Assembly (NCBI GenBank): GCA_037143175.1
Contig: JBAWZF010000025.1
Location: forward strand, 1 to 38,075
Source of the DNA: a bacterium
GTDB lineage: Bacteria > Verrucomicrobiota > Kiritimatiellia > CAIKKV01 > CAITUY01
Length of the DNA stretch: 38,075 nucleotides
Direction of reading: 5' to 3'
Below are positions 4,214-38,075 of this stretch, piece by piece. Position 1 is the first letter of the stretch. Each line of letters begins with the position of its first letter. Below the pieces are notes generated by a model that saw nothing but the letters and a program-made list of their open reading frames with translations, did no database searches and was not told the origin of the DNA. Made by a program: the position numbers and the translations under genes.

Positions 4214-4227
4214 TCTTATGTTAAGAT
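4213..4227. repeat. Short hairpin at methyltransferase stop
   Basis: ATCTTA at 4213-4218 and TAAGAT at 4222-4227 form a 6-bp stem with a 3-nt loop immediately after the stop codon of the first methyltransferase gene. No T-run follows, so it is not a convincing intrinsic terminator; it may only stabilise or attenuate the transcript. Confidence 0.25.
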
Positions 4228-4336
4228 TCATCCTGAGATGAGATGAATAGGACGAGCTTGTAATGAGCTTGAATCTAGCCTTGCATGTATATATTTATAT
4301 AAATCTCAAGGAAATACAAGCCTTCAGGGGTATGCG

Positions 4337-4351
4337 GAATTACGGTAATTC
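4337..4351. promoter_or_regulatory. 7-bp palindrome upstream of second methyltransferase
   Basis: GAATTAC at 4337-4343 and GTAATTC at 4345-4351 are exact inverted repeats around one base, 23 nt before the ATG at 4375. Such compact dyads are typical of dimeric-regulator operators or of small RNA hairpins. The preceding 4285-4303 is strongly AT-rich and could hold a promoter, but I find no well-spaced -35/-10 pair. This is the one place in region 1 where an internal transcription start or control point is likely. Confidence 0.35.
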
Positions 4352-4374
4352 GATCCGATTGCGGGGTGAGTGAT

Positions 4375-5040: not shown

Positions 5041-5064
5041 GAGTCGACTTCAGGAAGGGCGCCG

Positions 5065-9960: not shown

Positions 9961-9974
9961 TAAGTGGAGTACCA

Positions 9975-16645: not shown

Positions 16646-16714
16646 GCAATAGGTAGTGGGCAATAGGCAATGGCCAGTAAGCAGTGAGCAGATTTCCGTG
16701 GGCAGTGAGTAGAA
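16631..16714 (+). repeat. Degenerate tandem heptanucleotide repeat
   Basis: Nine consecutive 7-bp units run from 16631 to 16693 with consensus RGCARTR (for example GGCAGTA, AGCAGTA, GGCAATA, GGCAATG, AGCAGTG). Weaker units continue to 16714, including GGCAGTG at 16701-16707. The array supplies the final codons and stop of the ArsR-type gene and fills the leader of the next gene. I see no second copy elsewhere in the window. Confidence 0.8.
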
Positions 16715-16737
16715 AATTGATTCAGGGTCAAAAACAT

Positions 16738-19201: not shown

Positions 19202-19837
19202 TCACAGTCCATGACGGGTAAGAGTTTTACCCGTCCAGGTAAGTAACTTGCGTTTTTTTAACTTCAAGATCAGGCGGGACAGGGTTTCCGGTGTAGTCCC
19301 GATGGCGCCCGCAATGTCTTTTTTGGAAATCGACAGAGTTACGGTCTTTTGGTTGCCAAACTGCTCCTTCAGGAACCAAAGCAGTCGCCCTTCCACGTCA
19401 TGGGCCTGTTGCTGAACGATGCGTTCAGCAAGATAGCGTTGTTTGCGCATCAGCATGGCAATGAAGTCGTTACGGAAGCCTTCGCTGTTGAGCAGGTGAT
19501 GAACGTCGGCCCGCGGAAAGACGATTACATCGCAATCAGACAGTGCCACGGCGGTCACAGGATAATTCTCTCGCTCAAATAGAACAACTTCAGCGAAAAC
19601 CTCACTGGGTTGGACGATTTTAATGACCACTTCGCTGCCGTCAGGGGCTGTCTTGTGGAGTTGGATGGCGCCCCGCCGCAATAAAAACAGCGCGCGACCA
19701 GGATCGCCTTCGTGAAACAGGAAACTCCGCTTTTTTAATTCTTTCACAGAGCAGATGGCTGCAAGTGCCTTAACGCTATCTCGTGATAGTTCCTTGAAAA
19801 AACTGCTTTCTGCGAGAAACTGATAACCTTTAATCAT
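19202..19837 (-). CDS. Crp/Fnr-family transcriptional regulator
   Basis: A 211-residue regulator with a cyclic-nucleotide-binding-like beta-barrel (residues 10-125: FLFHEGDPGRALFLLRRGAIQL and the GSEVVIKIVQPSEVF strand pattern), a dimer helix (near 125-150) and a C-terminal winged helix. The recognition helix TTPETLSRLI has Glu184, Ser187 and Arg188 in the E-x-x-S-R pattern of FNR rather than the R-E-x-x-G-R of CRP, so a TTGAT-type half-site is expected. The FNR N-terminal cysteine cluster is absent, so it is not an iron-sulfur oxygen sensor. Its 3' end stops two bases from the convergent CoA-disulfide reductase gene. The ligand is unknown. Confidence 0.88.
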   Translation of the reverse strand: MIKGYQFLAESSFFKELSRDSVKALAAICSVKELKKRSFLFHEGDPGRALFLLRRGAIQLHKTAPDGSEVVIKIVQPSEVFAEVVLFERENYPVTAVALSDCDVIVFPRADVHHLLNSEGFRNDFIAMLMRKQRYLAERIVQQQAHDVEGRLLWFLKEQFGNQKTVTLSISKKDIAGAIGTTPETLSRLILKLKKRKLLTWTGKTLTRHGL

Positions 19838-21382: not shown

Positions 21383-22927
21383 ATGCAGGGTCACAATTGG
21401 ATTGCCATTCTTGATTTCGGGTCCCAGTACAGTCAACTGATTGCCCGCCGGGTGCGTGAACAGCGGGTCTATTCCGAGCTGTTGAAATTCAATATTACCG
21501 CGGCTGAACTGGCCGCCCGTAAACCAGCGGGAATCATTTTATCGGGTGGCCCGGCGAGCGTTTTAGACAAAGGGTCCCCCTTGTGTGATCCGGCCATCTA
21601 TGAGTTGGGCGTGCCTGTCCTGGGAATATGCTATGGGCAGCAGATGACGGCCAAACTTATGAATGGTGCCGTAAAGCCTGGGCATACCCGGGAATATGGC
21701 AGCGCGCGGATCTCGGTGGTGGATTCCTCCTCATTGTTTCGTGATCTACCTTCGACGCTTGATGTATGGATGAGTCACGGCGATCAGGTGGAGCGTATGC
21801 CTGAGGGCTTTTCCGTGTTGGCCAAGACGGATACGTGTCCGGTGGCGGCCATGGGGAATTCTGCGCGACGAATCTATGGACTTCAGTTCCATCCCGAGGT
21901 GGTTCATACCCCACAGGGATCGACCATTCTCAGCCGCTTCCTCTTTGATATCTGCAAGTGTCGGCCTGATTGGGAAATGGCCCAGTTCATCAAGGAGAGC
22001 GTGGCGGCTATCCAGACAAAAGTGGGGGATGGTCACGTTTTGTGCGGGCTGAGTGGAGGAGTCGATTCCTCGGTGGTGGCTGCCTTACTGCATCGCGCCA
22101 TTGGCAAACAACTTCATTGTGTTTTTGTGGACAACGGTTTGGTGCGGGCGAATGAAGCCCGGCAGGTTGAGGAGCTTTTTGGAAAAGCCTTTGGCATTGA
22201 TCTGCATGTGGCGCATGCCCAGAAACTGTTTATGGATGGACTGAAGGGAGTTACAGACCCGGAACAGAAGCGCAAGATTATCGGGAAAACTTTCATTGAT
22301 GTGTTTTCGACCGAAGCCCGAAAATTCGGAGAGGCTGAATTTCTTGCCCAGGGAACGCTCTATCCTGACGTTATTGAGAGTGCCTCCCCATTGGGTGGGC
22401 CCTCGGTAACGATCAAGAGCCATCATAATGTGGGTGGGCTGCCGGATGATCTGAAGTTCAAGTTGATCGAGCCTGTTCGGGAGCTGTTCAAGGATGAGGT
22501 GCGTTTACTGGGGCGCGAGCTTGGCCTGCCCGGATATGTAGTCGATCGACAGCCGTTTCCCGGGCCCGGTCTTGCCGTCCGGATTCTTGGCGAAGTGACA
22601 GAGGAGCGGGTCGCTTTGCTTCAGAAGGCGGATCTTCGGGTTCAGGAAGAAATGCAGAAGGATCCGATGTATGCCAAAATCTGGCAATCCTTCGCGATAT
22701 TGCTACCCATTCAGACTGTTGGGGTTATGGGCGACTGCCGAACCTATGAGAATGTGGCCGCCCTGCGCATTGTGGAAAGTCAGGATGGCATGACGGCCGA
22801 CTGGTCGCGGGTGTCTTATGATACGCTGGCCCGTATATCTACCCGCATCATTAACGAGGTTTCTGGCATTAATCGTGTGGTCTATGATATCAGTTCAAAA
22901 CCACCTGCGACCATCGAATGGGAGTGA
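21383..22927 (+). CDS. guaA: GMP synthase (glutamine-hydrolysing)
   Basis: Converts XMP to GMP with ATP and glutamine. The 514-residue protein is the full-length two-domain form. The N-terminal class I glutaminase has [17 protein letters not shown] at the start, nucleophile Cys in LGICYGQQ (near residue 84) and the His/Glu pair in [10 protein letters not shown] (near 170-179). The ATP pyrophosphatase domain has the P-loop [18 protein letters not shown] (near 217-234), and the C-terminal GMP_synt_C domain ends in the characteristic [13 protein letters not shown]. Only five bases separate it from carA, so the two glutamine-dependent nucleotide-pathway genes are likely one transcript. A strong ribosome binding site follows for the next gene. 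Confidence 0.98.
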
Positions 22928-22940
22928 AAAAGGGAGAGGT

Positions 22941-23738
22941 ATGAGGCGAAGTACGATCTGGTTCCTTTTGCTCGGATTAACCGCTCTGGCTCAAGCTGAC
23001 ACGATGACGTTGAATAATGGGCAGGTGGTTAAAGGTCGCTTCATGGGCTTTACTGATCGGAAGTTTGATTTCAAGACTGAGGATGGGGCGGCTATTTCTG
23101 AGTACCCTCTTAATGTGAAATCCATTATCCCGGAGGTGCCACTCACGGTGTCGATAGAGTTGGCGCGTAGTACTTACGAGAATGTCGAGTTTCGGTCTTT
23201 TGGTGAGTTTGTCATTCACCTTGCAAAAGATGGGAAACCTATTGATGAACGTGTGATCATGCTGAAGAAGCTCACGATTAATCAGTCGCCTCAGGACACA
23301 AGGATTAACAAGGGAAGGGGGGGTGCCCCGGATGAGTCCGTCGAGGAACCCGCTCGTGAATGGCAGCGATCTGGCAAGTGGCGCGAAGTTGATCCTAAAA
23401 ACAGTTCGGTCATTAGTAAGGGAGAAGAAGTTGATATTGAAGATTTCCTGAAAAAGGGGTTCGTCAATATTGTGCATTTCCATTACCCGAAAGCCTTGGC
23501 GAGTATTCGGGAGGGGAATTATGTTGAAGCACTAGCCGCCAAACCATCAAATCGGATCGTGATTCTGAAAATTGTGGCCGCTGACTTCAAAGTCCCGATA
23601 TGTGAAGCGTTAGAGATTAAGTCATTGCCACAGTTCTGGTTTTATGATGCTCGGGGGCGGTTGGTGAAGAAGTTAGCGGATCGCTTTACCGAGGGAGATA
23701 TTGATGGGGCGTTAAAGTTGGCACGGCGAGGATTATGA
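22941..23738 (+). CDS. Secreted Sm-like / thioredoxin-fold protein of unknown function
   Basis: A 265-residue exported protein. Residues 1-19 are a signal peptide with an AQA cleavage site, and ATG 22941 has an excellent AGGGAGAGG site. Directly after the signal comes DTMTLNNGQVVKGRFMGFTDRKFDFKT (residues 20-46), an Sm-like beta-strand pattern often seen in exported proteins of PVC bacteria. The last 110 residues follow a thioredoxin fold: IVHFHYPKAL, a strand VILKIVAADF, the cis-proline motif SLPQFWFYDARGRLVKKL. The usual CxxC is absent, so it is not a redox thioredoxin. The middle is low-complexity and charged. Function is unknown; the domain reading is moderate, the secretion signal clear. 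Confidence 0.72.
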   Translation: MRRSTIWFLLLGLTALAQADTMTLNNGQVVKGRFMGFTDRKFDFKTEDGAAISEYPLNVKSIIPEVPLTVSIELARSTYENVEFRSFGEFVIHLAKDGKPIDERVIMLKKLTINQSPQDTRINKGRGGAPDESVEEPAREWQRSGKWREVDPKNSSVISKGEEVDIEDFLKKGFVNIVHFHYPKALASIREGNYVEALAAKPSNRIVILKIVAADFKVPICEALEIKSLPQFWFYDARGRLVKKLADRFTEGDIDGALKLARRGL

Positions 23739-24928: not shown

Positions 24929-26671
24929 ATGAGTACGGTTTCACATAGTTCTAGAATTTCCGATATTTTACTCCGTCGCGGCAGTATGTCGGCCGAAGCG
25001 CTGCAACAGGCGCAGGAGCAGGCGCAGTCGCTTTCAATACGACTTGAGAAATATCTGCAGGATAACTCGTTAATTACGCCGACGGAGGCGACGCTGTGTC
25101 TGGCGGAATATCTGCGGATGGCGCCCATCACGCTGGCGCATTTTACTCCGAGCCCCCAGCTCCTTGAAACCATTCCCGCTGATATCTTGCGAAAACACCA
25201 GGCTGTGCCGATCATGAAAGTGGGTGGGCTTTTGGTGGTTGCATTAGGGGATCCGTTTGATGTGATGGCGGTGGATGAGCTCCATGTGATTTCCGGGCTC
25301 CAGATCATGCCGCTGGTCGCGGGTGAAAAGGATATCCAGGACGCCCTTGCGCGAGCCTTGGCTCCGGCGGAGTCCAGTAATATTGATCTCGAAGATATCA
25401 TGCGCGATTCCGATGATGATATCGAAGTCGGAAAAGAGGATAAGCAGGAGCTCAGTCTTGAGGAAATCATGGAGAGCGCTGAGGGGGCGCCTGTCATCCG
25501 GATGGTGAATATGATGCTGGTGGAGGCGTTGCGTACGAAGGCCAGCGATATTCATATTGAGCCGCAGGAAAAAACGCTGAGGCTCAGGTATCGAATTGAT
25601 GGGTCGCTGAGAGAGCGGCCAAGTCCCCCGAAGAGTTATCAGCCTGCCATTATTTCCCGTATCAAGATTATGTCTGATATGGATATTGCGGAACGGCGTA
25701 TCCCGCAAGATGGTCGCTTCCGGATTAAGGCGCTGGGGAAGGAAGTGGATATCCGGGTCAGTGCGCTTCCCTCCATCCATGGGGAGAAAATCGTTATGCG
25801 TGTGCTCGACAAGAGCGCCCTATTTCCCAGTCTCAGTGGGTTAGGTCTCGATGAGCATGCCTATGCCGCTTTTGCCTATGCGATCGCTCAGCCACATGGA
25901 ATCATTCTGGTAACGGGTCCCACCGGAAGCGGGAAAACGACTACCCTGTACTCCTGTCTGCAGGAATTGAACAAAATTGATGTGAATATTGTGACCTGCG
26001 AAGACCCTGTTGAATATCAATTGGCGGGTGTCAATCAGGTGCAAATCAATGCGGTGGGGTTAACCTTTGCTGCCGCCTTGCGCTCCATTCTGCGGCAGGA
26101 TCCGGATATTGTGCTGGTAGGCGAAATCCGTGATGGTGAAACGGCTGAAATCGCGGTAAAGGCCGCGCTTACCGGTCACTTGGTGCTCAGTACGTTGCAT
26201 ACGAATGATGCAGCCGGTGCCATTACCCGACTGATCGATATGGGGATTCCGCCTTTCCTGATGGCGTCCTCCATGATTTTGTCGCAAGCACAGCGACTTT
26301 TCCGCAAGCTCTGTACCGCATGTCGGACGCAAGTGGAACTGCCGCTGGATGTGCTCAGGGCCAATAAGATCGATCCGGAGTTTTTCAGGGATCCCAATAA
26401 TCCAGGGGGGGCTGGTTTCGTGCCCGTTTTTAAGGCTGTCGGCTGTCCAAAATGTAACGGGTCAGGGTACAAGGGGCGGGGTGCCATTATGGAGGTGTTG
26501 CCGGTTACCGAGCGTATCAAGGAGATGATTATGAAAGGCGCGACTAGCGGGGAAATCCGTGAGGCGGCGCAGGAGGAGGGGATGTTGACGCTCAAACAGG
26601 CCGGATTGAAGAAGGTGAAAGAGGGTGTGACCTCGCTTGAGGATGCCATGGAGCTTACGGGTGGTGAATAA
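24929..26671 (+). CDS. Type IV pilus / type II secretion assembly ATPase (PilB/GspE-like)
   Basis: A 580-residue hexameric ATPase that powers pilin or pseudopilin assembly at the inner membrane. The N-terminal T2SSE_N-type domain covers about residues 30-150 (PADILRKHQAVPI, LVVALGDPFDVMAVDEL). The ATPase core shows ASDIHIEPQEK, the P-loop GPTGSGKTT with Lys336, the Asp box DINIVTCEDPVEY-like region, Walker B DPDIVLVGEIRDGETAE and the His box GHLVLSTLHTNDA. Two CxxC pairs near the C terminus (CTACR and CPKCNGSGYKGRG) form the zinc knuckle usual in PilB and GspE. The next gene is the platform protein. PilB and GspE cannot be separated on sequence alone; there is no pilT or pilin nearby. Confidence 0.93.
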   Translation: MSTVSHSSRISDILLRRGSMSAEALQQAQEQAQSLSIRLEKYLQDNSLITPTEATLCLAEYLRMAPITLAHFTPSPQLLETIPADILRKHQAVPIMKVGGLLVVALGDPFDVMAVDELHVISGLQIMPLVAGEKDIQDALARALAPAESSNIDLEDIMRDSDDDIEVGKEDKQELSLEEIMESAEGAPVIRMVNMMLVEALRTKASDIHIEPQEKTLRLRYRIDGSLRERPSPPKSYQPAIISRIKIMSDMDIAERRIPQDGRFRIKALGKEVDIRVSALPSIHGEKIVMRVLDKSALFPSLSGLGLDEHAYAAFAYAIAQPHGIILVTGPTGSGKTTTLYSCLQELNKIDVNIVTCEDPVEYQLAGVNQVQINAVGLTFAAALRSILRQDPDIVLVGEIRDGETAEIAVKAALTGHLVLSTLHTNDAAGAITRLIDMGIPPFLMASSMILSQAQRLFRKLCTACRTQVELPLDVLRANKIDPEFFRDPNNPGGAGFVPVFKAVGCPKCNGSGYKGRGAIMEVLPVTERIKEMIMKGATSGEIREAAQEEGMLTLKQAGLKKVKEGVTSLEDAMELTGGE

Positions 26672-26692
26672 AGGCCGAAGGGAGATGCAGGA

Positions 26693-27898
26693 ATGAGTCC
26701 TTTGCTGCGTTCAGGAGGAACTGGGAAACCCGTCGGGGCGATTGGTTCGTTGGCGCCAAAGGTGGCTCAAAAACCGGCTTTGAATACGAGCGCCAAAAAA
26801 CCGGTTGCCGCTCAGGTAGTCAGAACAACTCGTAAAGGTGTAGGGAAAGTCCGGGGTGCGAATAAAATTGTTCAGAAGGATCTGGCTCCATTTTCCCGGC
26901 AGATGGCCGCCATGTTGTCGGCGGGTATGCCGATTGTCGCAGCGCTGGAAACTTTGGAGGAGCAGGCGGCCAACCCCAATTTTAAAATCGTCATAGGTTC
27001 GTTGAAACGGAATATTGAAGGGGGCTCCTCTTTCTCTGAAAGTCTTCAGCAGATACCGGATGTGTTCGACGTGCTTTATGTGAATATGGTTCGGGCAGGG
27101 GAACAGAGCGGGCAGTTTGCGGAAACCATGCGACGTATCGGCGATTTGCTCGAGGCTACCGCACGTCTACGGCGCAAGGTGAAGTCTGCAATGACTTATC
27201 CGGTGGTTGTGCTTTCCCTCTCTTTGATCATTGCCAGCGGTATGATCATTTTCATCGTGCCGGTTTTTGCGGGTATGTTTAATGATTTTGGCGGAAAATT
27301 GCCTGCTCCTACTCAATTTCTCGTGGACCTGAGCGCAGGAATCAAAAAGTATGCAGCTATTATTATTCCCGCGATTATGCTCACCATTTGGGGCTTTAAG
27401 CGCTGGAAGAAAACCGCCTCAGGCGCATGGGCCATGGATCGCATGGCCTTAAAAGCCCCGGTGTTCGGGTTGCTTACTCAAAAAGTCGCGATTGCTCGTT
27501 TTTCCCGTACTCTCAGTCAGTTGGTTCAAAGCGGGGTGCCTATCTTGAACGCGCTTGAAATCGTTGCTAAAGCGGCCAACAATCTGGTGATTGAGTCAGC
27601 CATTATGGATGCCCGCAAAGCGGTTGAACATGGGGATACGCTTTCGTCTGGTTTAGAGGGCAAGGATTGTATTCCAAAGTTGGTCGTGCGCATGCTCTCT
27701 GCCGGAGAGAAAACAGGTAAAGTTGACGAAATGCTGGGAAGTGTGGCGGACACCTATGATGACGAGGTAGAGGCTATGTTGGCTTCCCTGACCTCCCTGT
27801 TGGAGCCATTATTGATGGTATTTCTCGGGGTAGTTATCGGAGGCATTGTGGTTTGTATGTTCCTGCCAATATTCAAGATGGTTGACGTCATCAAGTAA
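26693..27898 (+). CDS. Type IV pilus / type II secretion platform protein (PilC/GspF-like)
   Basis: A 401-residue inner-membrane protein that couples the assembly ATPase to the growing pilus. Two T2SSF domains are seen: [25 protein letters not shown] (near residues 66-90) and its repeat [25 protein letters not shown] (near 268-292), each followed by the family's [10 protein letters not shown] / [10 protein letters not shown] motif. Three membrane segments lie near 165, 215 and the C terminus ([22 protein letters not shown]). A lysine-rich, probably disordered extension of about 60 residues precedes the first domain. It follows the ATPase gene after 21 nt with a GGGAGA site. Confidence 0.93.
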
Positions 27899-28091: not shown

Positions 28092-30641
28092 ATGAACATA
28101 CAAACAGATCCAAATGAAGAGTTCAGTCTTGCAGGAATACGAATTCTAGTGGTAGATGATGATGAAGTCATACGCCTGCTCGCCCAGCGCGTGCTCATGT
28201 CGCGTCACGCCGCAGTTGAAGTGGCTGAAAACGGCCGCTCGGCTTTACAGATTTTACTCCGGCAGGACTTTGATCTGGTGCTGGTTGACCTGCGGATGCA
28301 GGAAATGGATGGCATTACTTTCATTCAGGAGGCCCGTAACATCTGGCCATGGCTGGGCTTTGTGATTATGACCGGCTATATGGATGATGTGTCCTCTGAT
28401 CTTTCTTCCACCCTGGGGGTTACGCGCGTGCTTGCCAAACCGGTTCGTCCGAATCAGCTCTGTCAGGTTTTGATGGAGGAATATAAAGAGCGTCGACTGG
28501 GGGTGGGAATGGCGGGCCCCGGGATGGAACAGCATCAGCGTCAGTTGCGGATGTTGGGGCATCTGGGCGAAACGGCGTTGGCTTCGGGCACCTTTGTTGA
28601 GGCTTTGCAGGACTTGAGCGAAGGGCTTGGCGAACTACTGGGGTGCGATGTTGCAGGCTTGTTGGGTTTCTCTGAAGGGCAGAATGTGGTTGTGCTGACG
28701 GCGCAGAATGCGGTGGCGGAATCTTTCCTGTCAAACTGTCATCAGGAAATGGTCTCTCGTTATGAGGCCTTAAGCGGGAAGAAGACAGGGCAAATCGAAT
28801 GGCGTGTGCAGATGGAGGGGGTTCCCAGTTCACCGGAAGGACCGGCATTGCCCGGGCGCCTCATGACGATCCCGTTATTGGTCAATAATGAGATTCATGG
28901 AATTTTACTATTAGGGGCGGCTGAGGCGGAAAAGATTGCGGCAATCGATATTTCCTTTGTCTATCACATCGCGAACGTCCTCTCTTCTATTTTGGCTGCT
29001 GTTACCCGAATCCGGCAATTGGCTGCCCACGATTCCCTGACGGGGCTTTTTAATCGGGAATATTTTGAGGAGCAGGCGGAGCGGGCCTGGCAGTTAGCAC
29101 GACGATATGGGCATCATATGGCTGTTGCCATTATGGATGTGGATCATTTTAAAGCCGTCAATGACACCAATGGGCATCTGGCGGGCGATCAAGTTCTTCA
29201 TGAATTCGCCGACATTCTCAAAAAGGCGGCACGGGGTTCAGATGTGGTGGCGCGGTATGGGGGAGATGAGTTTGTGGTCATGTTGCCGCAGGCTGATCTG
29301 GCGTCCGGGATGGCCGTGGTAAATCGTATTCGAAGTGCCGTGGAGGAAAATGTGTTTTGTGCCAAAACACTAAATCTTAAATTAACCACTTCCATCGGAT
29401 TAGCCACGAGTCTGGGCATTGAGCCTACGGCCTCGGCAACGGATATTCTGAGTTTGGCGGATGCTGGACTCTATATGGCCAAACGGGAAGGACGCAACCG
29501 AGTTCGCTTATGCACCAAGGAGCTTGGCAAAGACGGCGAAGTCGTCACAGGGGATGGAGTATCTGCAGGGGAAAAGGCCATGTCCAGTATCAGGACGCAT
29601 CCCTGCATTCTGATTGTTGATGATGATCCGCTGATTCTCCAAACTCTGCAGGCAGTTTTGCGTGGGAGTGGCTATTTGACGGATACGGCCAGTGTTCCAG
29701 AGGAAGCATTACGTAAGGCGCAGGAGGCACCCGGAGCTTATGATGTCGCCGTCCTCGACCTGAATATGCCGGAAACCAGTGGATTGGAATTGCTGACGGC
29801 ACTTCGGCAAACGGATAGTTTTATCATGCCGGTGGTCATGACGGGCTATGCGACCAAGGAAAATGCAGTCCAGTCCTTGCGACAGGGCGCGTTTGAATTT
29901 ATTGAAAAGCCAGTCATGTCGGAAGAATTGCTGGCGGTTATCGAGAAGGCGTTGGATCATCGCCGCCTGAAAGTGGAGAATGAACGGTATCGCTCCCACC
30001 TCGAGGAGATGGTGCGGCAAAAAAGTGTTGATTTGCTCAAAGCCATGGATGAGCTGAAACAGGTGCATGAATTTACCTTGCAGGCCATGGCGCGTATGCT
30101 GGATGAACGCGAACATGCCACCGGTCAGCACAGTAATCGGGTTCGCGCTCTCAGTTCTGTACTGGGCAAAGCGATGAGTTTGCCTCGCAAAGAGTTGGAT
30201 ATTCTTTCTCATGGGGCTCAGTTGCACGATATTGGTAAAATCTCCGTGCCGGACCGTATCCTGCTTAAGAACGGCTCTCTGACTGATGATGAGTGGAAAG
30301 TGATGAAAACACATCCGGAAGTAGGGTATAACATTCTAGCCTCAAGTCCCTATCTCAAGGATGTGGCCGAACTTGTTCGCTCTCATCAGGAACGCTATGA
30401 CGGGAAGGGCTATCCCCGCGGTCTGAAAGGCGATGCTATCTGTTTGGGCGCGAGAATATTTGCCGTGATTGATGCTTATGATGCCATGCGCTCCGACCGG
30501 CCCTACAGGAAGGCGATGTCGCCCGAACAGGCTGCGGTGGAGATCCGGAATGGTTGCGGGTACCAGTTTGATCCTGCAGTGGTCGACGCTTTCCTCAGGC
30601 ATCAGGATCAAATGGAAGCAGAAGGCGGCTGGGCACTCTGA
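28092..30641 (+). CDS. REC-GAF-GGDEF-REC-HD-GYP cyclic-di-GMP signalling protein
   Basis: An 849-residue cytoplasmic protein with both synthesis and breakdown modules for cyclic di-GMP. Residues 15-130 are a receiver (VVDDDE, phospho-acceptor in LVDLRM, Lys in VLAKP). A GAF-like region covers about 160-310. The GGDEF domain has an intact GGDEF motif at 390-394 and the inhibitory site RGSD at 381-384, five residues before it. A second receiver begins near 504 (ILIVDDDPL, VLDLNMP, MTGYATKEN, EKPVM). The HD-GYP domain has His712-Asp713 in HDIGK and Gly773-Tyr774-Pro775 in DGKGYP. All key residues are present, so both activities are plausible. It converges on the response-regulator gene with a 34-nt overlap. 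Confidence 0.95.
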   Translation: MNIQTDPNEEFSLAGIRILVVDDDEVIRLLAQRVLMSRHAAVEVAENGRSALQILLRQDFDLVLVDLRMQEMDGITFIQEARNIWPWLGFVIMTGYMDDVSSDLSSTLGVTRVLAKPVRPNQLCQVLMEEYKERRLGVGMAGPGMEQHQRQLRMLGHLGETALASGTFVEALQDLSEGLGELLGCDVAGLLGFSEGQNVVVLTAQNAVAESFLSNCHQEMVSRYEALSGKKTGQIEWRVQMEGVPSSPEGPALPGRLMTIPLLVNNEIHGILLLGAAEAEKIAAIDISFVYHIANVLSSILAAVTRIRQLAAHDSLTGLFNREYFEEQAERAWQLARRYGHHMAVAIMDVDHFKAVNDTNGHLAGDQVLHEFADILKKAARGSDVVARYGGDEFVVMLPQADLASGMAVVNRIRSAVEENVFCAKTLNLKLTTSIGLATSLGIEPTASATDILSLADAGLYMAKREGRNRVRLCTKELGKDGEVVTGDGVSAGEKAMSSIRTHPCILIVDDDPLILQTLQAVLRGSGYLTDTASVPEEALRKAQEAPGAYDVAVLDLNMPETSGLELLTALRQTDSFIMPVVMTGYATKENAVQSLRQGAFEFIEKPVMSEELLAVIEKALDHRRLKVENERYRSHLEEMVRQKSVDLLKAMDELKQVHEFTLQAMARMLDEREHATGQHSNRVRALSSVLGKAMSLPRKELDILSHGAQLHDIGKISVPDRILLKNGSLTDDEWKVMKTHPEVGYNILASSPYLKDVAELVRSHQERYDGKGYPRGLKGDAICLGARIFAVIDAYDAMRSDRPYRKAMSPEQAAVEIRNGCGYQFDPAVVDAFLRHQDQMEAEGGWAL

Positions 30642-32029
30642 GTGGGAAGATCTGCATGCCGGAGCTTGTTGTATTGAATACCCAATTCTCTAATCTTATA
30701 CCCCAGAATTCGGCGGGTTGTGCCGAGTAATTTGGCGGCTTTAGTTTGAACCCCGTTTGTCGACTGCAACGCATGAAGGATCATTTCCCGTTCGCAGGCG
30801 GCTACAGCGTCATCCAATGGAGCGGTGAAGTCTTGTTGCGCAGGCAGGATGCGTTCAGGTTTCTTATAAATGGATTCGGGGAGATGTTCGGGAAGAATCT
30901 CGGTTTTCTTGCTGTGCAGGACAAGGGTTCTCTCCACTATGTTTCGTAATTCCCGAATGTTTCCGGGCCATGTATAACGGGCTAGAAGCGACATGGCATC
31001 GGAAGAAAAACTTTGCACGGTGAAACTCATGCTCTTTTTGAAAGTTTGCAGGAAGTGGCGTGTCAGAAGAGGCACATCCCCTGCTCGCTCCCGTAAGGGG
31101 GGGAGCGTGATGGGGACGACGTTCAACCGGTAAAAGAGATCGTCGCGGAAACGATGCATGCGAACTTCATCTTCCAGGATTCTGGAAGTGGCCGTGATGA
31201 TTCTGGCATGGGTTCGAATAACCTGTGTCCCCCCTAATCGCATGTATTCACGTTCTTGTAATACCCGGAGCAGTTTGACCTGTATCGGCAGTGACATTTC
31301 CCCCACTTCGTCAAAAAAAAGTGTACCTGATCCGGCTAGATCAAATCGTCCAAGCTTGCGCGTATCAGCACCGGTAAAAGCCCCTTTTTCATGCCCGAAC
31401 AGCTCGCTCTCCATCAGGGTCTCAGGTAGAGCTGAGCAATGAATCGGAATAAAGGGATCTTCCGCACGCGGACTTAAGTTATGGAGGCGGCGGGCAATCA
31501 GTTCTTTTCCTGTTCCGCTTTCTCCCTGGATCAGGATAGTGGCGTCGCTGTCGGCTGCCTGCGCAACAGCCTCCAGGGTTTTTATGAAAGTGGGGGATTG
31601 CCCGATAAGGCCATCGTTAGAGTATTCCGGGGCAATTTCATGCTGCAAAACCTCTACTTTGCGCCGTAAGGCCGAGGTTTCAAGGACCCGGCTCACAATA
31701 CGACGTATTTCATCCACGTCGAATGGCTTCATTACAAAATCACAGGCGCCGGCCTTAATGGCGTCTACAACAGGGCGCACGGAAAGGGAGGCGCTGACCA
31801 TGATGCAGGGAAGGCCCGGATATAGATCATTCAACTCTTTCAGGAGCGTCACCCCGTCTTTTTCCGGCATGATAACGTCCAGCAGCACAATGTCCACGGG
31901 GTGTCTGGCGAGTTGTGTCAGTGCCTGTTCTGCATTTTCTGCAAGGTGAGTTCGGTAAAGGGTTGTGAAGATCTGGCGGAGGGATTCCCTGCTGCCGCGG
32001 TCATCATCAACAATGAGTATGGATTTCAA
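30608..32029 (-). CDS. Sigma-54-dependent response regulator (NtrC family)
   Basis: A 473-residue activator of RNA polymerase sigma-54 holoenzyme. The receiver domain has Asp8-Asp9-Asp10, phospho-acceptor Asp51 and Lys101. The AAA+ domain has Walker A GESGTGKE (169-176), the sigma-54-contacting loop GAFTGA (216-221) and GTLFFDEVGEM. A Fis-type helix-turn-helix lies near 427-449 (QTKAAKLLGTTRRILGYKI). This is the last gene of the minus-strand operon, overlapping the kinase gene upstream by four bases. The architecture agrees with PrsR of PEP-CTERM/EPS regulation, and an exosortase is encoded 20 kb away, but the assignment is inference and a general NtrC-like regulator fits as well. Its end overlaps the HD-GYP gene. 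Confidence 0.94.
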   Translation of the reverse strand: MKSILIVDDDRGSRESLRQIFTTLYRTHLAENAEQALTQLARHPVDIVLLDVIMPEKDGVTLLKELNDLYPGLPCIMVSASLSVRPVVDAIKAGACDFVMKPFDVDEIRRIVSRVLETSALRRKVEVLQHEIAPEYSNDGLIGQSPTFIKTLEAVAQAADSDATILIQGESGTGKELIARRLHNLSPRAEDPFIPIHCSALPETLMESELFGHEKGAFTGADTRKLGRFDLAGSGTLFFDEVGEMSLPIQVKLLRVLQEREYMRLGGTQVIRTHARIITATSRILEDEVRMHRFRDDLFYRLNVVPITLPPLRERAGDVPLLTRHFLQTFKKSMSFTVQSFSSDAMSLLARYTWPGNIRELRNIVERTLVLHSKKTEILPEHLPESIYKKPERILPAQQDFTAPLDDAVAACEREMILHALQSTNGVQTKAAKLLGTTRRILGYKIRELGIQYNKLRHADLPTQSAQPPSASI

Positions 32030-34035
32030 GGTGTTTCCTCCTCGAGTTGGGTTGCGACGGGTAGGTGGATGGTGGCGAGTACCCCGAATTCATTGGAGTG
32101 GAGCGCAATCTTTCCTTGATGGTCAAGAATGGTTCGGCGGGCGATCGGGAGCCCGAGCCCAAGACCGCGGGCCTTCGTGGTGGAGAACGGGGAAAACGCT
32201 TTATCCACCAATGCCGGAAGTATCCCGGGACCATTATCCTTAATGGTGATGACAATCCCGGGTAGGGGACCGGATTCCATGGCGATTGTCATGGTGATCT
32301 CTCCTTTAGGGGTGGGCGTCAGCGCTTCGGCTGCGTTCTTGATTAAGTGTACAAAGGCCTCGCCTAATGCGCGTTCGTCACCCGGCACCTTTGGTAAATT
32401 TTCCGGGGCGGTCAAGGTGACCTTGATATTGGGGGCAGGCGTTGGAAAAACAAGAGAGAGACTTGATTCCAGACACCGCTTAATTCCAAGAGGTTTGAAA
32501 TTGAGAGAGGGTGGATTTGCAAAGGCGTGGATCTGATCCACGATGCTATTCAGACGCTCAATCTCAGAGGAGACCAGATCCCTGAATTCATGTTGAAAAT
32601 CCTTATCCTCGTATCGTTCAGGAAGGAGTTGTGCAAACGTCTTTATGGCCACAAGAGGATTTCGTACTTCATGTGACAGGCTGGCGGCAAGTTCGGTCCA
32701 GAAAGTGGCGCGATCCAACCGATCTTGTTGTTCCTTCATGGAATTCTGGTCGGTGGTATCCTGAACGACGGCCACGGCACCGAGACAGCGGGTCTGGTTG
32801 GCAAGACGCTGTGTGCGTGTTACCAGATTCCGCTGGGTATCTTGTTGGATCCATTCGCTGGACTGCGATGCGCCGCTCTCTCCGAGGGTTCTGCGCAGCA
32901 GATCTGCCAGACGACTCCCCAAGCCCTCCACGGGCCGGCCTATAGCGGTCTCGGCGTTGACACCAAATAAGGCTTGGGCCGATTCATTGTACCATCGTAC
33001 GATCCCCGAATCGTCTACAGCAATAATGCCGCTGGGCATGGAGTGAAGCAGGGTTTCGGCTAAGGCCTTTTGAATAGTAGCTTCCTCATAGAGCAAGGCA
33101 TTCTCAAGGGTTGTGGAAACGCATTCGGTCAGGCTGATCAGATGATCCAAGTGGCGTTTCTCAAGCGGAAGCCCCGAGGAAAGCTGGCCGACAAACAGCC
33201 AGCCTAGGAGCCGGTGGTGGGATTGTAGCGGGATGAGCACTTCGGCGCCCATTTGGTCTAGCATGTCCCGCAGCATCAATCGATCGGAGACCTCCCGGAT
33301 ATGGTCGAGATGAGGATGGGAGACGGCATGCGTGTGGAGGGTCATCCAATTGACGTAGGGATGGTTTTCTCCGAATTCAAGCGACACGGAGGACTCGAGG
33401 CAGCGCAGACCGGCGCGGAGTCGATAGGCGGCGATATCGCGAGTTCTACTGAAAATTCCAATACGTGAGACCCGCAGGGCGTCGGCAACTTCGTCAACAA
33501 GCCGTTGCAACAGGGATTCAACGTTGGTGAAATGACGCATCGCCGCAGAAAAATCGCGAATATCGAAGGAAGGGTCGGGTTCTGCCTGAGGTCTGTTCTG
33601 GAGGGCCTCTGCCACAACGGTCAGCCGCAAGGTCTCCTGCCGAAGAAGGACATTTTCAGAAGCCAGTTCCAGGTGGCGGAGAGCCCGTTGCACCAGACAG
33701 TTCACCCTGTGGCGGTCCATAACCGGGTCGGGCTCGGTGGCGTAGACATCACTTTGTTGAGCCTGAAGCATGGGGTCGGAGCCGGGGATACCAAACGCGA
33801 TAACAAGGGCATGGGGATAATTCCGATTAACAAGACCCAACAGGCCGAGGGCTTCCCGGGTCTGCAAATCCAGGAGCAGAACACGGTCTTGCTGCTGCTC
33901 AAGCTCCTTCTGGACACGGATAGGGGTTTCGAGATGGCGCACCACGGCGAGAGTCCCCAGCATGGTGCCCATTCGGGTAGCCCATGCCTCATTGGTACTG
34001 AACAACAGGCAGGTGGATCCAGATGAGTGCGTCAT
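32026..34035 (-). CDS. Soluble histidine kinase with degenerate receiver, GAF and PAS domains
   Basis: A 669-residue kinase without membrane segments. Residues 7-115 resemble a receiver: hydrophobic strands and Asp56 in VLLLDLQ remain, but the N-terminal acidic pair is replaced by STN and the conserved lysine is absent, so it is probably a pseudo-receiver. GAF-like sequence follows (near 150-325), then PAS (near 330-435). The H-box HEVRNPLVAIKTFAQLLPERY carries His455; the ATPase domain has HLIKNAAEAL, DNGPGI and ARGLGLGLPIARR. The H-box and flanks closely match those of the kinase encoded just upstream, suggesting duplication. It overlaps both neighbours by four bases and probably serves the sigma-54 regulator. 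Confidence 0.9.
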   Translation of the reverse strand: MTHSSGSTCLLFSTNEAWATRMGTMLGTLAVVRHLETPIRVQKELEQQQDRVLLLDLQTREALGLLGLVNRNYPHALVIAFGIPGSDPMLQAQQSDVYATEPDPVMDRHRVNCLVQRALRHLELASENVLLRQETLRLTVVAEALQNRPQAEPDPSFDIRDFSAAMRHFTNVESLLQRLVDEVADALRVSRIGIFSRTRDIAAYRLRAGLRCLESSVSLEFGENHPYVNWMTLHTHAVSHPHLDHIREVSDRLMLRDMLDQMGAEVLIPLQSHHRLLGWLFVGQLSSGLPLEKRHLDHLISLTECVSTTLENALLYEEATIQKALAETLLHSMPSGIIAVDDSGIVRWYNESAQALFGVNAETAIGRPVEGLGSRLADLLRRTLGESGASQSSEWIQQDTQRNLVTRTQRLANQTRCLGAVAVVQDTTDQNSMKEQQDRLDRATFWTELAASLSHEVRNPLVAIKTFAQLLPERYEDKDFQHEFRDLVSSEIERLNSIVDQIHAFANPPSLNFKPLGIKRCLESSLSLVFPTPAPNIKVTLTAPENLPKVPGDERALGEAFVHLIKNAAEALTPTPKGEITMTIAMESGPLPGIVITIKDNGPGILPALVDKAFSPFSTTKARGLGLGLPIARRTILDHQGKIALHSNEFGVLATIHLPVATQLEEETP

Positions 34036-36545
34036 GCTGGTTTGTCCTCCTTAAGCAAGGGGAGGGCGATGGTAAATGTCGTGCCGCGTCCAGATTCGCT
34101 CTTTACGTCAATCAGGCCGTTATGCTCCTGAATGATCCCATGGGCTACTGATAAGCCCAGCCCTGTTCCTTGAGACTTGGTGGTGAAAAAGGGATCAAAG
34201 ATGTGCATGAGATCCTCCGGAGAAATGCCCTCGCCGGTATCCTGAATGCGGACCAGAATCATGGGGCGATCCGGATGCCCATTCCACCATGCACTTAAGG
34301 GGTGTTCGGGGGATGGCTGGCTCGTAACGACCGTGAGCGTACCACCCTGTTCCATCGCCTCAATAGCGTTCAGGAAGAAATTTATGAAAGCCTGACTGAG
34401 TTGATCACCATCAGCATTGATATAGTCCGGCGAGATCGCGAAGGAAGTGGAGAGTTGAATATTCTTGGAACGCATTTGCTGCTGGAGGAGTTTGAGGGTG
34501 TTGCTCAGCAGGTCATGGAGAGAAATGGCCGCCAGGACAGGCTTTGAAGGGCGTGAGAACCGGAGAAGCTGGTTGACGATTGAGTCAATGCGTTTGACTT
34601 CACCGCCTACCAGAGACGAGAACGTCTCGCGGAAATCGGCATCGTCATAGCGTTCGGGCATCAGTTGGGTGAACGTTTTGATGGAGACAAGAGGATTTTT
34701 AATTTCATGCGCCATGCCAGCGGCGAGGGTACCCAAGCTCGCCAGTCGGTCAGTACGCCGGACCTGAAGTTCAAGCTGTCGGATGGTCGTGAGGTCGTTG
34801 ATCACCAGAAACGCTCCCAGTTTTTTCCCCGCATGCCCATAGATAGCCGAACTGCTGATCCGGAGCGGGATGGGCTCGCCATGCGATTGAGAGAGGGCAT
34901 AATCCTGGTTTGTAATGGCGAGGCTGCCACTCAGCGACTCTTTAAGAAGGTTTCCAAGAGGGTTCGGTAATAGGCCCAAGGGTTGCGTCAGCGTTTCGGC
35001 TGCTGACAGACCGGTGATCCGCTGGGCCTCCCGGTTAAAGACGGTGATGGCTCCATCGACGTTCGCGGCGATCACACCGCTGACGAGGCTGTCCACCAGG
35101 GTTTCGTTGTATATTTTGCTGTCCTGCAATTGGGTGTAGAGCCGGGCATTGTTAAGCGCCACAGCCAGTTGATTACAGAGAAGCTGCAATGCATGTTGTT
35201 CAGGGGCACCATAGATTGAACCCGATAGCCGGGGGCCAAGAAGGACGATGCCCTCTAGGCCCTCCTGTGAGCGTAGGCTGACCGCGGCGGCGAATTGATT
35301 CTGATCCAGCAGACGGCACGCCGCTGCGACGAGGGCAGTGGGTTTCAGGCGATGAATGATAACAGGAACAAGCGGTTCATCCCATTCGAGGAGTGCCTGA
35401 GGGATAGGGCTATTCCTGCTTAGCGTGAGAACCTCGTTGTCCTCGGCTTTTGGATAACGTTGAACATAACGTGAGTCCTCGCCGATGAAGATGCAGACAC
35501 GATCCGTGCCAATGGTCTTAATGAGGAGATCCGCGAACTCGTGAAGGAGTGTTTCGACAGTGCGTATGGAGAGCATGAGCGCGTTAGCTGAACGCATTAG
35601 ATCGCTTATGTTAAGGGTCGCGAAGTTCACAAATAGGCGGGCGGCTACCTGCTGCATCAGCCCGCTGGCGGGTACCATGGAAAAGGCTACCACAAGGGAG
35701 GCAATAAAATAAGAGAGAGCAGGGAGTGGGATCCAGAGTTTTTGGAGAACGAAGTTGAGAAGCAGGCATGTTCCCGCGTAAAGCAAGGCCAGCCAGGCGA
35801 ATAACAGGGCATAGGCTGTTAGCCGCCTCATGAAATAGGCCACATCCATGATGCGCCGGGTGGCGATGCCATAGGCGATAACAATATAAAGACAGAGGAC
35901 GGAAAGGGGCGTGAGTTGCACCGATTGGGAGTTGTTGGTGAACAGCGGAATCACCAGTGCGGTGACAATGCCGATAAATACGCTGGAGCCGCTTCCCAGA
36001 AAGATAAACTGCAGCTCCGTTTTTTGGATCCCGACAGAGTTCCTGAGATCACGAACAAAACGATACAGTAGCGTCATCAGGCCGAACACGAAAAAGACAC
36101 CATAGATTGGAAAAGCGATACTGTAAACGGGATCTGGGATCGAGCGTGCGGTCTCTGCGGTTGTGGTGGCGTAGGAGGCTCCTAAAATAAAAAAGCGGGT
36201 TAATGAAACGAGCCCCATGGCGACTGAGATTGTGAACCAAAGCAGGGATTTCGAGAGGATGCGACGCCAGGATTCTGTCGGACGGACGATGGTCGCGCGC
36301 AATAAGTCGAAGCAGACGGGAATCATGGCCCCGATCATCATGCAACCCCGTATGAATATGGCGGCGACATCGAGGTTCGGCGCAAGAAAAGCCGAGGCCA
36401 TGCAGCTTTGCCAAACCAGAAGGAGCAGGGAAAGGATGAGAAAAGATTGGTTCGCGCGGCGTTGTGGATTGGTATAGAAAACAAAAAGTCCAACCATCAG
36501 GTCGATGGCGATGATGAGGAAGTGAAACACTGAAAGTAGATTCAT
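34032..36545 (-). CDS. Membrane sensor histidine kinase (multi-TM, GAF, PAS)
   Basis: An 837-residue sensor kinase. The first 300 residues contain about eight hydrophobic segments (starting LLSVFHFLIIAIDLMVGLFVFY), similar to membrane-sensing N termini of PrsK-like and 7TM kinases. A GAF-like domain follows (about 310-465), PAS (about 480-590), then the dimerisation helix with His613 in MAHEIKNPLVSIKTFTQLMPERY and an ATPase domain with FFLNAIEAM, DTGEGI and SQGTGLGLSVAHG. I place the start at ATG 36545, one base beyond the ketosynthase stop. A longer frame from 36602 overlaps that gene by 56 nt and lacks support. The input is unknown; lipid or cell-envelope state is one guess because of the ketosynthase neighbour. 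Confidence 0.9.
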   Translation of the reverse strand: MNLLSVFHFLIIAIDLMVGLFVFYTNPQRRANQSFLILSLLLLVWQSCMASAFLAPNLDVAAIFIRGCMMIGAMIPVCFDLLRATIVRPTESWRRILSKSLLWFTISVAMGLVSLTRFFILGASYATTTAETARSIPDPVYSIAFPIYGVFFVFGLMTLLYRFVRDLRNSVGIQKTELQFIFLGSGSSVFIGIVTALVIPLFTNNSQSVQLTPLSVLCLYIVIAYGIATRRIMDVAYFMRRLTAYALLFAWLALLYAGTCLLLNFVLQKLWIPLPALSYFIASLVVAFSMVPASGLMQQVAARLFVNFATLNISDLMRSANALMLSIRTVETLLHEFADLLIKTIGTDRVCIFIGEDSRYVQRYPKAEDNEVLTLSRNSPIPQALLEWDEPLVPVIIHRLKPTALVAAACRLLDQNQFAAAVSLRSQEGLEGIVLLGPRLSGSIYGAPEQHALQLLCNQLAVALNNARLYTQLQDSKIYNETLVDSLVSGVIAANVDGAITVFNREAQRITGLSAAETLTQPLGLLPNPLGNLLKESLSGSLAITNQDYALSQSHGEPIPLRISSSAIYGHAGKKLGAFLVINDLTTIRQLELQVRRTDRLASLGTLAAGMAHEIKNPLVSIKTFTQLMPERYDDADFRETFSSLVGGEVKRIDSIVNQLLRFSRPSKPVLAAISLHDLLSNTLKLLQQQMRSKNIQLSTSFAISPDYINADGDQLSQAFINFFLNAIEAMEQGGTLTVVTSQPSPEHPLSAWWNGHPDRPMILVRIQDTGEGISPEDLMHIFDPFFTTKSQGTGLGLSVAHGIIQEHNGLIDVKSESGRGTTFTIALPLLKEDKPA

Positions 36546-36546
36546 C

Positions 36547-37785
36547 TCATGAAACCCTTTCGGTGATAAGGCAGCTATTTCCTCCTCCGAGGCCGTGCGC
36601 ATTAATCAGGATACAGTTTAGATGCGCATGTCTCGCATGGAGTGGAACATAGTCGAGATCGCATTCGAGATCTGGCTTTTCGAGGTTCGCCGTGGGCGGG
36701 ATTATTCCGTGGCGGGTCGCCAGGGAACAGGCGATAAGTTGAAACGGCCCTGCAGCGGATAAGGGGTTGCCGGTGACCCCTTTGATGGAACTCACCGGCA
36801 CCTTGTGCGCATGTGTCCCAAATACATTTTTAATCATCTTTGTTTCCATGCGATCCAAGACGGGATGGCCTGGGCCGTGTGCACAAATGAAGTCAACATT
36901 CAGGGGGCGTCGACCCGCATTGGCGAGTGCTTCGTTCATAGTCGCATTCAGGCCTGATCCTGAGACTGCCGGATCAGTGTCAAAACGGGTGGCGTATCCG
37001 GTAATCTCAAGATATGGCTTGGCGTTGCGTGCAAGTGCATGTGTCAAATTTTCAAGGATGAGTATCCCTGCGCCCTCCGAGATGACGCCGGAGTCATGAT
37101 CCGCATCGAATGGGCGGCTGGCTTTCCCGGGGGTCTCATTACGTAAAGAAACTAAGCCGGCCTTTGCCAGACATGCAAAGGTCAGTGGGTTAATGGGCGC
37201 ATCAGTCCCGCCGCAAACAACAACATCCGCGCGGCCTGCGCGGATCAGATCGGCGGCCGCGCCAATGGCGTCAAGTCCAGCCGCACATGCGGAAGCAATG
37301 GTCGTGGACCGTGATATCAGCGGGAAGTTCAGTGCGATAATACTGGCGGCTTGATGGGGCTGGCAGGCATGAACAATGTGTGAAGGAACTTTTTCTGGCC
37401 CCCGCCCCGCCATTCGCTCCATGCCGTGTTCGATAACTTCGATGGCACTCGAACTAACGCCGAGTACCAGGGGTATTGCTTTCTCGGAGATCAGGGTGTC
37501 GCACGATAAATTAGCGTCCAGAAACGCTTGGGCTGTGGCTGCAAGAGCCATTTGTGTCTGACGGGCAAGGCGCTTTGTATTAATGCCCGGCCTAATATGA
37601 ACGGCCGGGTCAAAATCACTCACTTCACCTGCAATTCGACAGGAGTGTTTACTGGCATCAAACAAGGTGATTGTTTTGATTCCACTCCGGCATTCAAGAA
37701 GTGACGACCAAAAGGCTTCTTTACCAATACCATTCGGTGCCACAACGCCAAGTCCCGTAACAACCACTCTATTGTTGTGAGGCAT
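36547..37785 (-). CDS. FabF-like beta-ketoacyl-ACP synthase with altered active site
   Basis: A 412-residue condensing enzyme of the KAS I/II fold: VVVTGLGVVAPNGIG at the N terminus, Cys167 in ASACAAGLDA, His303 in CAHGPGHPVLD, Lys335 in SSIKGVTGN and the glycine-rich C-terminal loop HGLGGGNS. The residue at the place of the second catalytic histidine of FabF (His340) is Asn340. That gives Cys-His-Asn, the triad of FabH/KAS III. The FabF gate Phe is also replaced (GLGG). It may be a specialised elongation or starter-unit synthase, or a non-elongating paralogue. It heads a two-component operon. ATG 37785 is listed; an adjacent in-frame TTG at 37788 is better spaced from GAGGA. Confidence 0.85.
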   Translation of the reverse strand: MPHNNRVVVTGLGVVAPNGIGKEAFWSSLLECRSGIKTITLFDASKHSCRIAGEVSDFDPAVHIRPGINTKRLARQTQMALAATAQAFLDANLSCDTLISEKAIPLVLGVSSSAIEVIEHGMERMAGRGPEKVPSHIVHACQPHQAASIIALNFPLISRSTTIASACAAGLDAIGAAADLIRAGRADVVVCGGTDAPINPLTFACLAKAGLVSLRNETPGKASRPFDADHDSGVISEGAGILILENLTHALARNAKPYLEITGYATRFDTDPAVSGSGLNATMNEALANAGRRPLNVDFICAHGPGHPVLDRMETKMIKNVFGTHAHKVPVSSIKGVTGNPLSAAGPFQLIACSLATRHGIIPPTANLEKPDLECDLDYVPLHARHAHLNCILINAHGLGGGNSCLITERVS

Positions 37786-37852
37786 CAAATTATGTCATCC
37801 TCATTTCTTCTAGGATAAGCATACTATTATAGATAGATCAAGAAAATATGTT

Positions 37853-37893
37853 CGTTTTTGTTCATGTATAATCGCGAAGAATGTTCAAAAACG
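37853..37893. promoter_or_regulatory. Imperfect long dyad, candidate activator or repressor site
   Basis: CGTTTTTGTTCAT (37853-37865) and ATGTTCAAAAACG (37881-37893) are inverted repeats agreeing at 11 of 13 bases, around a 15-nt centre. TGTTC occurs three times, at 37849, 37859 and 37882. Relative to the sigma-54-like promoter downstream it lies at about -91 to -131, the usual distance of enhancer sites for NtrC-type activators. A TATAAT at 37867-37872 lies in the centre but has no proper -35 partner. Confidence 0.42.
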
Positions 37894-37956
37894 TACACAT
37901 CTTCTATATATGGATGATCATGCATTATGATACCACAATATATTGTCGATGACGGG

Positions 37957-38022: not shown

Positions 38023-38075
38023 ATGAATCAAGATAGAAGTTGGGGATGGATATTGGGCTTGTCGTTGATTATGGC
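38023..38075 (+). CDS. Partial CDS, N-terminus of an unknown (probably exported) protein
   Basis: The frame opens at ATG 38023 behind an AAAGGGG ribosome site and continues to the window edge with 17 visible codons. It encodes MNQDRSWGWILGLSLIM, a short polar start followed by a hydrophobic run that could be a signal peptide or membrane anchor. The family cannot be recognised. It is transcribed away from the ketosynthase/kinase operon and lies behind the sigma-54-like promoter, so it is a likely target of the regulator encoded there. Confidence 0.6.
   Translation, partial: MNQDRSWGWILGLSLIM

Follow-up and report, generated by a model that had tools for sequence, protein, structure and literature searches.

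A beta-ketoacyl synthase (KS) gene of the FabF lineage is paired with the gene of a seven-transmembrane (7TM) histidine kinase (HK1) in the 38,075-nucleotide stretch of DNA analysed here (the window). This pairing is real and conserved, and it is undescribed in the open-licence literature searched. An earlier note on this DNA had proposed that the lipid-type enzyme and the signalling genes act together, and sequence comparison makes such a functional tie very likely, given the deep, reciprocal linkage and the clade-wide Asn in the active site. As the best explanation we suggest a synthase-receptor module, in which the KS would make a hydrophobic ligand, HK1 would sense it and an outer membrane protein of the FadL family would be the output; we give this reading a chance just short of even.

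The ketosynthase gene and its operon

The KS heads a minus-strand gene order KS > HK1 > HK2 > sigma-54 response regulator (RR), in which the ATG of HK1 lies 1 bp after the KS stop. The genes and the codons discussed below are as follows.

36547-37785, minus strand: KS, FabF-lineage beta-ketoacyl synthase, 412 aa (PF00109, E 2e-42; PF02801, E 5e-25)
37285-37287, minus strand: KS codon C167
36877-36879, minus strand: KS codon H303
36781-36783, minus strand: KS codon K335
36766-36768, minus strand: KS codon N340
36595-36597, minus strand: KS codon H397, altered gate region
36589-36591, minus strand: KS codon L399, altered gate region
34032-36545, minus strand: HK1, with a 7TM module (aa 1-237, further helices up to about 308), GAF-like, PAS, HisKA and HATPase domains
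32026-34035, minus strand: HK2, histidine kinase with an N-terminal part of about 320 aa without domain assignment, then PAS, HisKA and HATPase domains
30608-32029, minus strand: RR, with PF00072 receiver, PF00158 sigma-54 AAA+ (GAFTGA motif, by eye) and PF02954 Fis HTH domains
28092-30641, plus strand: REC-GGDEF-REC-HD-GYP protein, convergent; a neighbour in the genus, found downstream in L139 and absent from most loci

The KS reading frame is complete, with its ATG at 37785 and an in-frame TTG at 37788, and it contains C167, H303 and N340. Thus, the FabF-like ketosynthase with a Cys-His-Asn active site described in the earlier note is intact, and its operon, with the KS first, two kinases and a sigma-54 regulator, agrees with the coordinates and Pfam domains. 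By its domains the RR is an NtrC-type sigma-54 regulator. The convergent protein at 28092-30641 could, judging from its domains, both make and break c-di-GMP.

In fold and lineage the window KS is a FabF. The Pfam scan returned only the N- and C-terminal ketoacyl-synt domains, plus a sub-cut-off Thiolase_N match, and FabH-type domains (ACP_syn_III) were absent from it. The nearest PDB sequence is the KAS II of Synechocystis (1e5m), and the AlphaFold2 model (mean pLDDT 96.1) gave TM scores of 0.92-0.96 against structures of FabF and related KAS enzymes. Since the Pfam domains are FabF-type, membership of KAS III was rejected; the likeness to KAS III noticed before is real at residue 340 only, and lineage, domains and fold speak for FabF. 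The agreement of His303 and Lys335 with FabF residue numbers is likewise correct as a number, but coincidental, because the window count includes the initial Met and the FabF literature count excludes it. The score of the window KS against the FabF equivalog model TIGR03150 was 370.4 bits, below the cut-off of 493.75.

Four PF00109 matches were found in the source genome. The housekeeping fabF lies elsewhere (contig C5) with an ACP match 99 bp away, whereas the window KS has no adjoining ACP gene. Another locus of the source genome (L007; G000 contig C9) carries, in tandem, a KS and a KS-like partner without the Cys, near a 1,909-aa ORF, and is perhaps a polyene or similar cluster.

The nearest homologues of the window KS (83-84% identity) belong to a bacterium listed as uncultured and a MAG of the PVC group, followed by Kiritimatiellales and Pontiellaceae proteins at 49-52%; these relatives mark the source as a PVC bacterium of the Kiritimatiellia type. 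Residues C167, H303, K335 and N340 recur in relatives at 83, 64 and 50-54% identity; as these show identical residues, a sequencing error or lone substitution at Asn340 is ruled out. Compared with the nearest genus members, the KS is the most conserved gene of the operon (83% vs 63, 63 and 72% for the other three). A plasmid-borne origin was rejected: plasmid matches at E<=1e-60 amounted to 14 records, all below 60% identity, and the five listed of these 14 had 40.8% identity and were annotated as fabF.

The N-terminal module of HK1 could be aligned over all 13 KS-linked kinases, 11 of which match PF16927 (HisKA_7TM) at E<=1, the best at 1.3e-20; the HK1 of the window is not listed at E<=1. 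In the predicted model of the module (pLDDT 88.9), long helices are packed into a bundle, and a pair of strands stands between two of these helices. Foldseek returned nothing at E<=0.001 for this model; its best matches were at about 0.002, and all rows shown were GPCRs. With candidates taken from the Foldseek list, VIA-align gave Z 17.9 and an rmsd of 3.6 over 228 residues to the GABA-B receptor, to be read against about 14 reached by mostly helical models without clear relatives, and mostly class C GPCRs filled its top 50 rows. The model is therefore suggestive of a class C GPCR-like bundle, a fold that implies no function or ligand. For the genus homologue of HK2, no transmembrane helix is predicted.

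Elsewhere in the window, a glycan and exosortase region (1476-16215) holds glycosyltransferase, methyltransferase, O-antigen-ligase-like and sugar-transferase genes together with those for the exosortase EpsH (9957-10910) and a DUF3485 protein (10907-11656). It is followed by the gene of an 838-aa protein (16684-19200) in which domains of the disulphide oxidoreductase, rhodanese, TusA and DsrE-like types are fused; this gene adjoins that of a Crp/Fnr-type regulator (19202-19837). A 306-aa ORF without Pfam match (22818-23738) overlaps the end of a GMP synthase ORF, and ORFs that read by eye as a GspE/PilB-type ATPase and as a membrane protein of the PilC type lie just before the signalling genes (24929-27898).

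Linkage of ketosynthase and kinase genes

The linkage was assessed on 188 distinct KS domains, of which 182 were testable, having at least 300 bp of downstream sequence or a match. A KS was counted as linked when the HK1 7TM module was encoded no more than 250 bp downstream on the same strand. Distant KSs were gathered by peptide patterns of the window KS and by alignment, so the sample is biased in its KSs and was not selected for kinases. Genes were called by ORF scripts, with some antisense miscalls that were reduced in later calls.

Altogether 57 of the 182 testable KSs were linked to a 7TM kinase, against 0/81 of the fully canonical ones (C,H,K,H / T,T / F,F). Among the 36 testable KSs with Asn340, linkage was found in 35; in the exception, L051 of Nitrospinota, the kinase lies at 755 bp. 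The gap between KS and kinase was mostly 0-25 bp. An ACP match within 1.3 kb accompanied none of the 57 linked KSs and 82 of the 125 unlinked ones, a rough contrast, as locus lengths differ.

On the tree, the linked label required 5 changes, compared with a mean of 34.2 after shuffling. A single branch (SH-aLRT 93) had 51 linked or near-linked rows together on one of its sides; six more, all with His340, were placed among FabFs. This was a quick tree with a midpoint root. Linked or near-linked KSs occur in Kiritimatiellota/Verrucomicrobiota, Rokubacteria, Armatimonadota, Thermodesulfobacteriota, Nitrospinota, Myxococcota and Actinomycetota, with kinase distances of 733-1,100 bp in KSs of the last three.

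In the reverse direction, the 7TM module was detected in 30 of 58 relatives, and in all 29 testable ones a KS or a piece of one was directly upstream (29/29). This was established by coordinates in 24 genomes, to which G024, G044, G054 and G031 were added (contig ends cut the KS of G024 and G031), as was G013, whose KS lacks its middle; G050 was left out, since its contig stops inside the kinase. The kinase-less relatives that were read (L032, L034-L037) carried canonical or other KSs.

The pairing may be set against the possibility that an ordinary FabF paralogue with one substitution happens to lie beside signalling genes. Apart from the general frequency of fabF paralogues, seen in the four PF00109 matches of the source genome, nothing was found to speak for such an accident; the linkage is conserved, reciprocal and clade-wide, residue 340 is altered over the clade, and the linkage counts (57/182 vs 0/81; 29/29 reciprocal) refute it, so that we regard it as extremely improbable. 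The question of the earlier note whether the kinase linkage is conserved is answered by the same counts.

The family is not universal within a phylum. In the phylum of G221, 22 of 247 genomes passed E 1e-163, and in that of G220, 43 of 95 passed E 1e-160. Of the loci read in these surveys (22 and 30, respectively), a 7TM kinase followed the KS in 8 and 5, in one case at 1,082 bp, which indicates a patchy distribution. For the high-scoring KSs of L186, L191 and L194, no 7TM kinase was present within the locus sequence examined.

Active site, neighbourhood and regulatory DNA

The gate Phe of FabF is F400, within G399-F400-G401-G402, according to PMC7138838. Leu399 of the window KS aligns to this residue, which bears out the changed gate Phe reported before; His397, first taken for the gate position, aligns with FabF F398 and was discarded in that role. 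At FabF positions the window KS has Asn (340), Pro and His (305/307), His (398), Leu (400) and Gly (229).

In the 41-row tree clade of the window KS, residue 340 is Asn in 33 rows, Cys in 3, His in 3 and Ser in 2, and the three His340 rows lack His303 and Lys335. Counted over the whole set of 57 linked KSs, residue 340 is N in 35, H in 8, Q in 8, C in 3, S in 2 and I in 1. As to whether Asn340 is fixed in orthologues, which the earlier note asked, it is a family trait of the clade (33/41) but not a hallmark of linkage, since other linked KSs have His, Gln, Cys, Ser or Ile.

Among the linked KSs, Cys163 is kept in 57/57, His303 in 51/57 and Lys335 in 53/57; T305 and T307, which we take to serve pantetheine binding, are both present in only 3/57 linked KSs vs 104/125 unlinked ones. 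Position 229 is Gly in 40/56 linked KSs and Phe in 80/85 canonical KSs, and FabF K65 and R206 are also altered in many linked KSs. The altered pocket positions presumably form the extender side, as in FabF and FabB. By alignment, then, the acylation thiol of the linked KSs is retained and the extender side of the pocket is rebuilt. We consider the changes at T305/T307, F229, F398 and the gate loop, together with the divergent FadL and its sigma-54-like promoter, more telling than Asn340. A chain-length-factor role was rejected, as the nucleophilic Cys is present in 57/57 linked KSs. In a separate set of KS-like proteins from Omnitrophota and Nitrospirota (L088, L107, L109, L114, L115), Phe replaces Cys163 and residue 340 is Glu or Asp; these loci also contain canonical KSs and ACP matches.

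The retention of Cys, His and Lys and the position of the KS as the most conserved gene of the operon make it likely that the KS is catalytic. However, three linked Kiritimatiellia KSs are CNRH, having lost both His303 and Lys335, and Tyr, Trp or Asn stands at 303 elsewhere, which weakens the case that condensation is always needed. In the sub-lineages L130, L167, L168, L258 and L259, His303 is replaced by Asn (and Lys335 by Arg in three of them) with the Cys retained, and a loss of condensation is possible in these KSs.

Such members bear on a different role, in which the KS would be a sensor: Cys167 would load an acyl group from an intracellular thioester, the acylation state would reach HK1 through contact between the two proteins, and the KS would condense little or not at all. 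The loss of the second His, the altered T305/T307, F229 and gate, and the invariant Cys (57/57) in a family where some members lack His303 or Lys335 would all suit this role, as would the 0-25 bp that mostly separate the KS and kinase genes. A fusion found in one actinobacterial order points the same way: L092:1877-4306 encodes an 810-aa PocR-GGDEF-KS protein, followed by three 7TM proteins and matched end to end at 54% identity by an open frame in a second genome (L253) among 3 of that order. The members without His303 or Lys335 and the GGDEF fusion keep the sensor role alive. On the other hand, most members retain His and Lys, and the tailoring enzymes that accompany the KS in loci of other phyla (below) suggest a made product; on balance we consider a sensor KS distinctly unlikely.

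The neighbourhood was compared over 37 loci of the window's phylum and 22 loci of other phyla. In the phylum set, the 7TM kinase adjoins the KS in 36/36 testable loci and HK2 follows HK1 in 34/34. A sigma-54 RR is encoded within four genes downstream of the KS in 22 of 34 loci, and none was found near HK2 in the other 12 of the 34. Among the divergent upstream genes, FadL occurs in 27/32 loci, a REC-HisKA-HATPase kinase in 29/32 and either of them in 32/32. In other phyla, no divergent FadL was found in the 18 testable loci (0/18).

Tailoring genes stand between or beside the KS and the kinase in four loci of other phyla (L243, L244, L245, L247). In L245, from the G221 survey, the order is FadL > KS > OleD/HpnA-like reductase > ICMT methyltransferase > 7TM kinase > kinase > regulator; in L247 it is KS > polyketide cyclase > ICMT > 7TM kinase, and in L243 reductase > SAM methyltransferase > KS > 7TM kinase. 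Within the window's phylum, a cluster of O-methyltransferase-like genes lies near FadL/KS in 5 loci (the one member scanned matched PF00891), and the window's own operon contains no tailoring enzyme. The neighbours in other phyla appear to favour a small-molecule product of the KS.

The upstream neighbour of the window KS is cut by the contig end at 38075. The features between the two genes are as follows.

38023-38075, plus strand: 5' end of FadL/OMPP1 (17 codons), divergent from the KS and truncated by the contig end
37958-37973, plus strand: sigma-54-like -24/-12 promoter TGGCATGGCCACTGCT, towards FadL, 49 bp before the ATG at 38023
37849-37864, no strand: operator-like palindrome 1, one mismatch to TGTNC-N6-GNACA
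37882-37897, no strand: operator-like palindrome 2, perfect TGTNC-N6-GNACA, its start 76 bp from the -24 element
37935-37946, no strand: palindrome ACAATATATTGT, a little upstream of the promoter; it belongs to a block conserved across 3 aligned same-genus sequences

By eye, the first 17 codons resemble a signal peptide, and they can be aligned to the FadL starts of two same-genus genomes; at the matching position L118 and L119 have a complete FadL (PF03349 in L119). The promoter-like site was scored against the -24/-12 consensus of sigma-54 promoters and has 9/11 consensus letters (p 0.02 by dinucleotide shuffles). The window holds 12 sites of that score in 38 kb, so a lone site means little and the evidence lies in conservation. 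Across 23 KS-FadL intergenic regions at p<=0.05, a site pointed towards FadL in 11/23 and towards the KS in 2/23, and it was not significant in 12/23 regions as trimmed. Upstream regions of canonical C,H,T,T,K,H FabFs had a site in 7/214, with both directions counted. The 23-region scan left out L120, L123 and L165 (region too long) and L171 (too short), the window was in the first scan only, and the first-scan sites of L131 and L164 fell outside the trimmed regions. Paired upstream operators are expected for an NtrC-type regulator. The operator pair was compared over three same-genus sequences. The two palindromes are spaced 33 bp apart both in the window and in G003; for G002, copy 2 deviates by more than one mismatch and was recognized by eye when the three sequences were aligned.

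These data also bear on a regulated lipid pathway, in which the KS would make an acyl chain of a special kind, destined for the envelope or a lipid-linked product. The kinases would sense the state of the envelope or of exogenous lipids and adjust the KS and FadL, the KS product not being a signal. A divergent gene for FadL, a lipid porin, is present in 27/32 loci of the phylum, the sigma-54-like sites face FadL and not the KS operon, and the glycan and exosortase cluster lies about 20 kb off in the window, all of which would fit such a pathway. Signalling is the better fit for the strict one-to-one pairing of KS and kinase type, which persists even in phyla without a divergent FadL (0/18), and for the KS-GGDEF fusion, which would be odd for a housekeeping lipid role. 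We regard the regulated lipid pathway as unlikely, though it deserves serious attention.

Proposed mechanism and known systems

Returning to the synthase-receptor module, we suggest the following scheme for the window's operon. The KS would have abandoned ordinary malonyl-ACP elongation and would make, or prime, a hydrophobic small molecule of the acyl or polyketide type. HK1, translated right after the KS, would be the receptor for this product, although its 7TM module may respond to something different, and, with HK2, it would control the sigma-54 RR. The RR could then bind the paired operators and act on the -24/-12 promoter, switching on the divergent FadL as well as the REC-kinase behind it. 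Consequently, the ligand level would set how much of the hydrophobic ligand, or of lipids like it, passes through FadL, and the circuit might serve either cell-cell signalling or internal feedback.

In a wider form, we tentatively propose a lipid or polyketide signalling system of several phyla, in which a FabF-derived KS with a rebuilt extender pocket would make the ligand of a class C GPCR-like 7TM kinase. In Kiritimatiellia the RR would drive a FadL channel for the ligand from a sigma-54 promoter; elsewhere the KS would feed c-di-GMP enzymes, even by fusion.

If the product is the signal, the few signals known to be made by ketosynthases would gain a FabF-lineage route, and it would become clear which active-site positions convert an elongase of fatty acids into a synthase of signals. 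Chemical signalling would be extended to uncultured Kiritimatiellia and other phyla, with the sigma-54-like FadL promoter as a ready reporter. Many bacterial multi-pass sensor kinases lack known ligands, and a gene pair of enzyme and kinase offers a direct route to one. For HisKA_7TM kinases (PF16927), neither a ligand nor a KS partner was described in the open-licence literature searched.

With FabF/KAS II the window KS shares PF00109 and PF02801, the fold and Cys-His-Lys. It differs in Asn340, where FabF has a Cys-His-His triad, and in missing the TIGR03150 cut-off. PMC7138838 describes a S. pneumoniae FabF F400A variant that yields triacetic acid lactone. Loss of the FabF gate can thus divert the enzyme to a pyrone.

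PpyS is a ketosynthase that makes photopyrone quorum-sensing signals with the triad C129, H281 and N310, according to PMC4578411. Its Cys-His-Asn triad is common to the window KS, but PpyS is of the FabH lineage and the KS of the FabF lineage. Photopyrone synthesis by a Cys-His-Asn enzyme is therefore a precedent for ketosynthase-made signals. The photopyrone receptor is a LuxR-type protein, not a kinase.

In the CqsA-CqsS and LqsA-LqsS systems, a synthase gene is paired with that of a kinase sensing its product. CqsA and LqsA are PLP enzymes. Their homologues are named as autoinducer synthases in PMC3566124. In the present locus, by comparison, a ketosynthase would be the synthase, and the kinase input is 7TM-GAF-PAS. 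The conserved gene adjacency that characterizes autoinducer synthases and their sensor kinases is present for KS and HK1, and by this trait the KS-HK1 pair, with its putative product, would belong to the known kind of synthase-sensor pairs.
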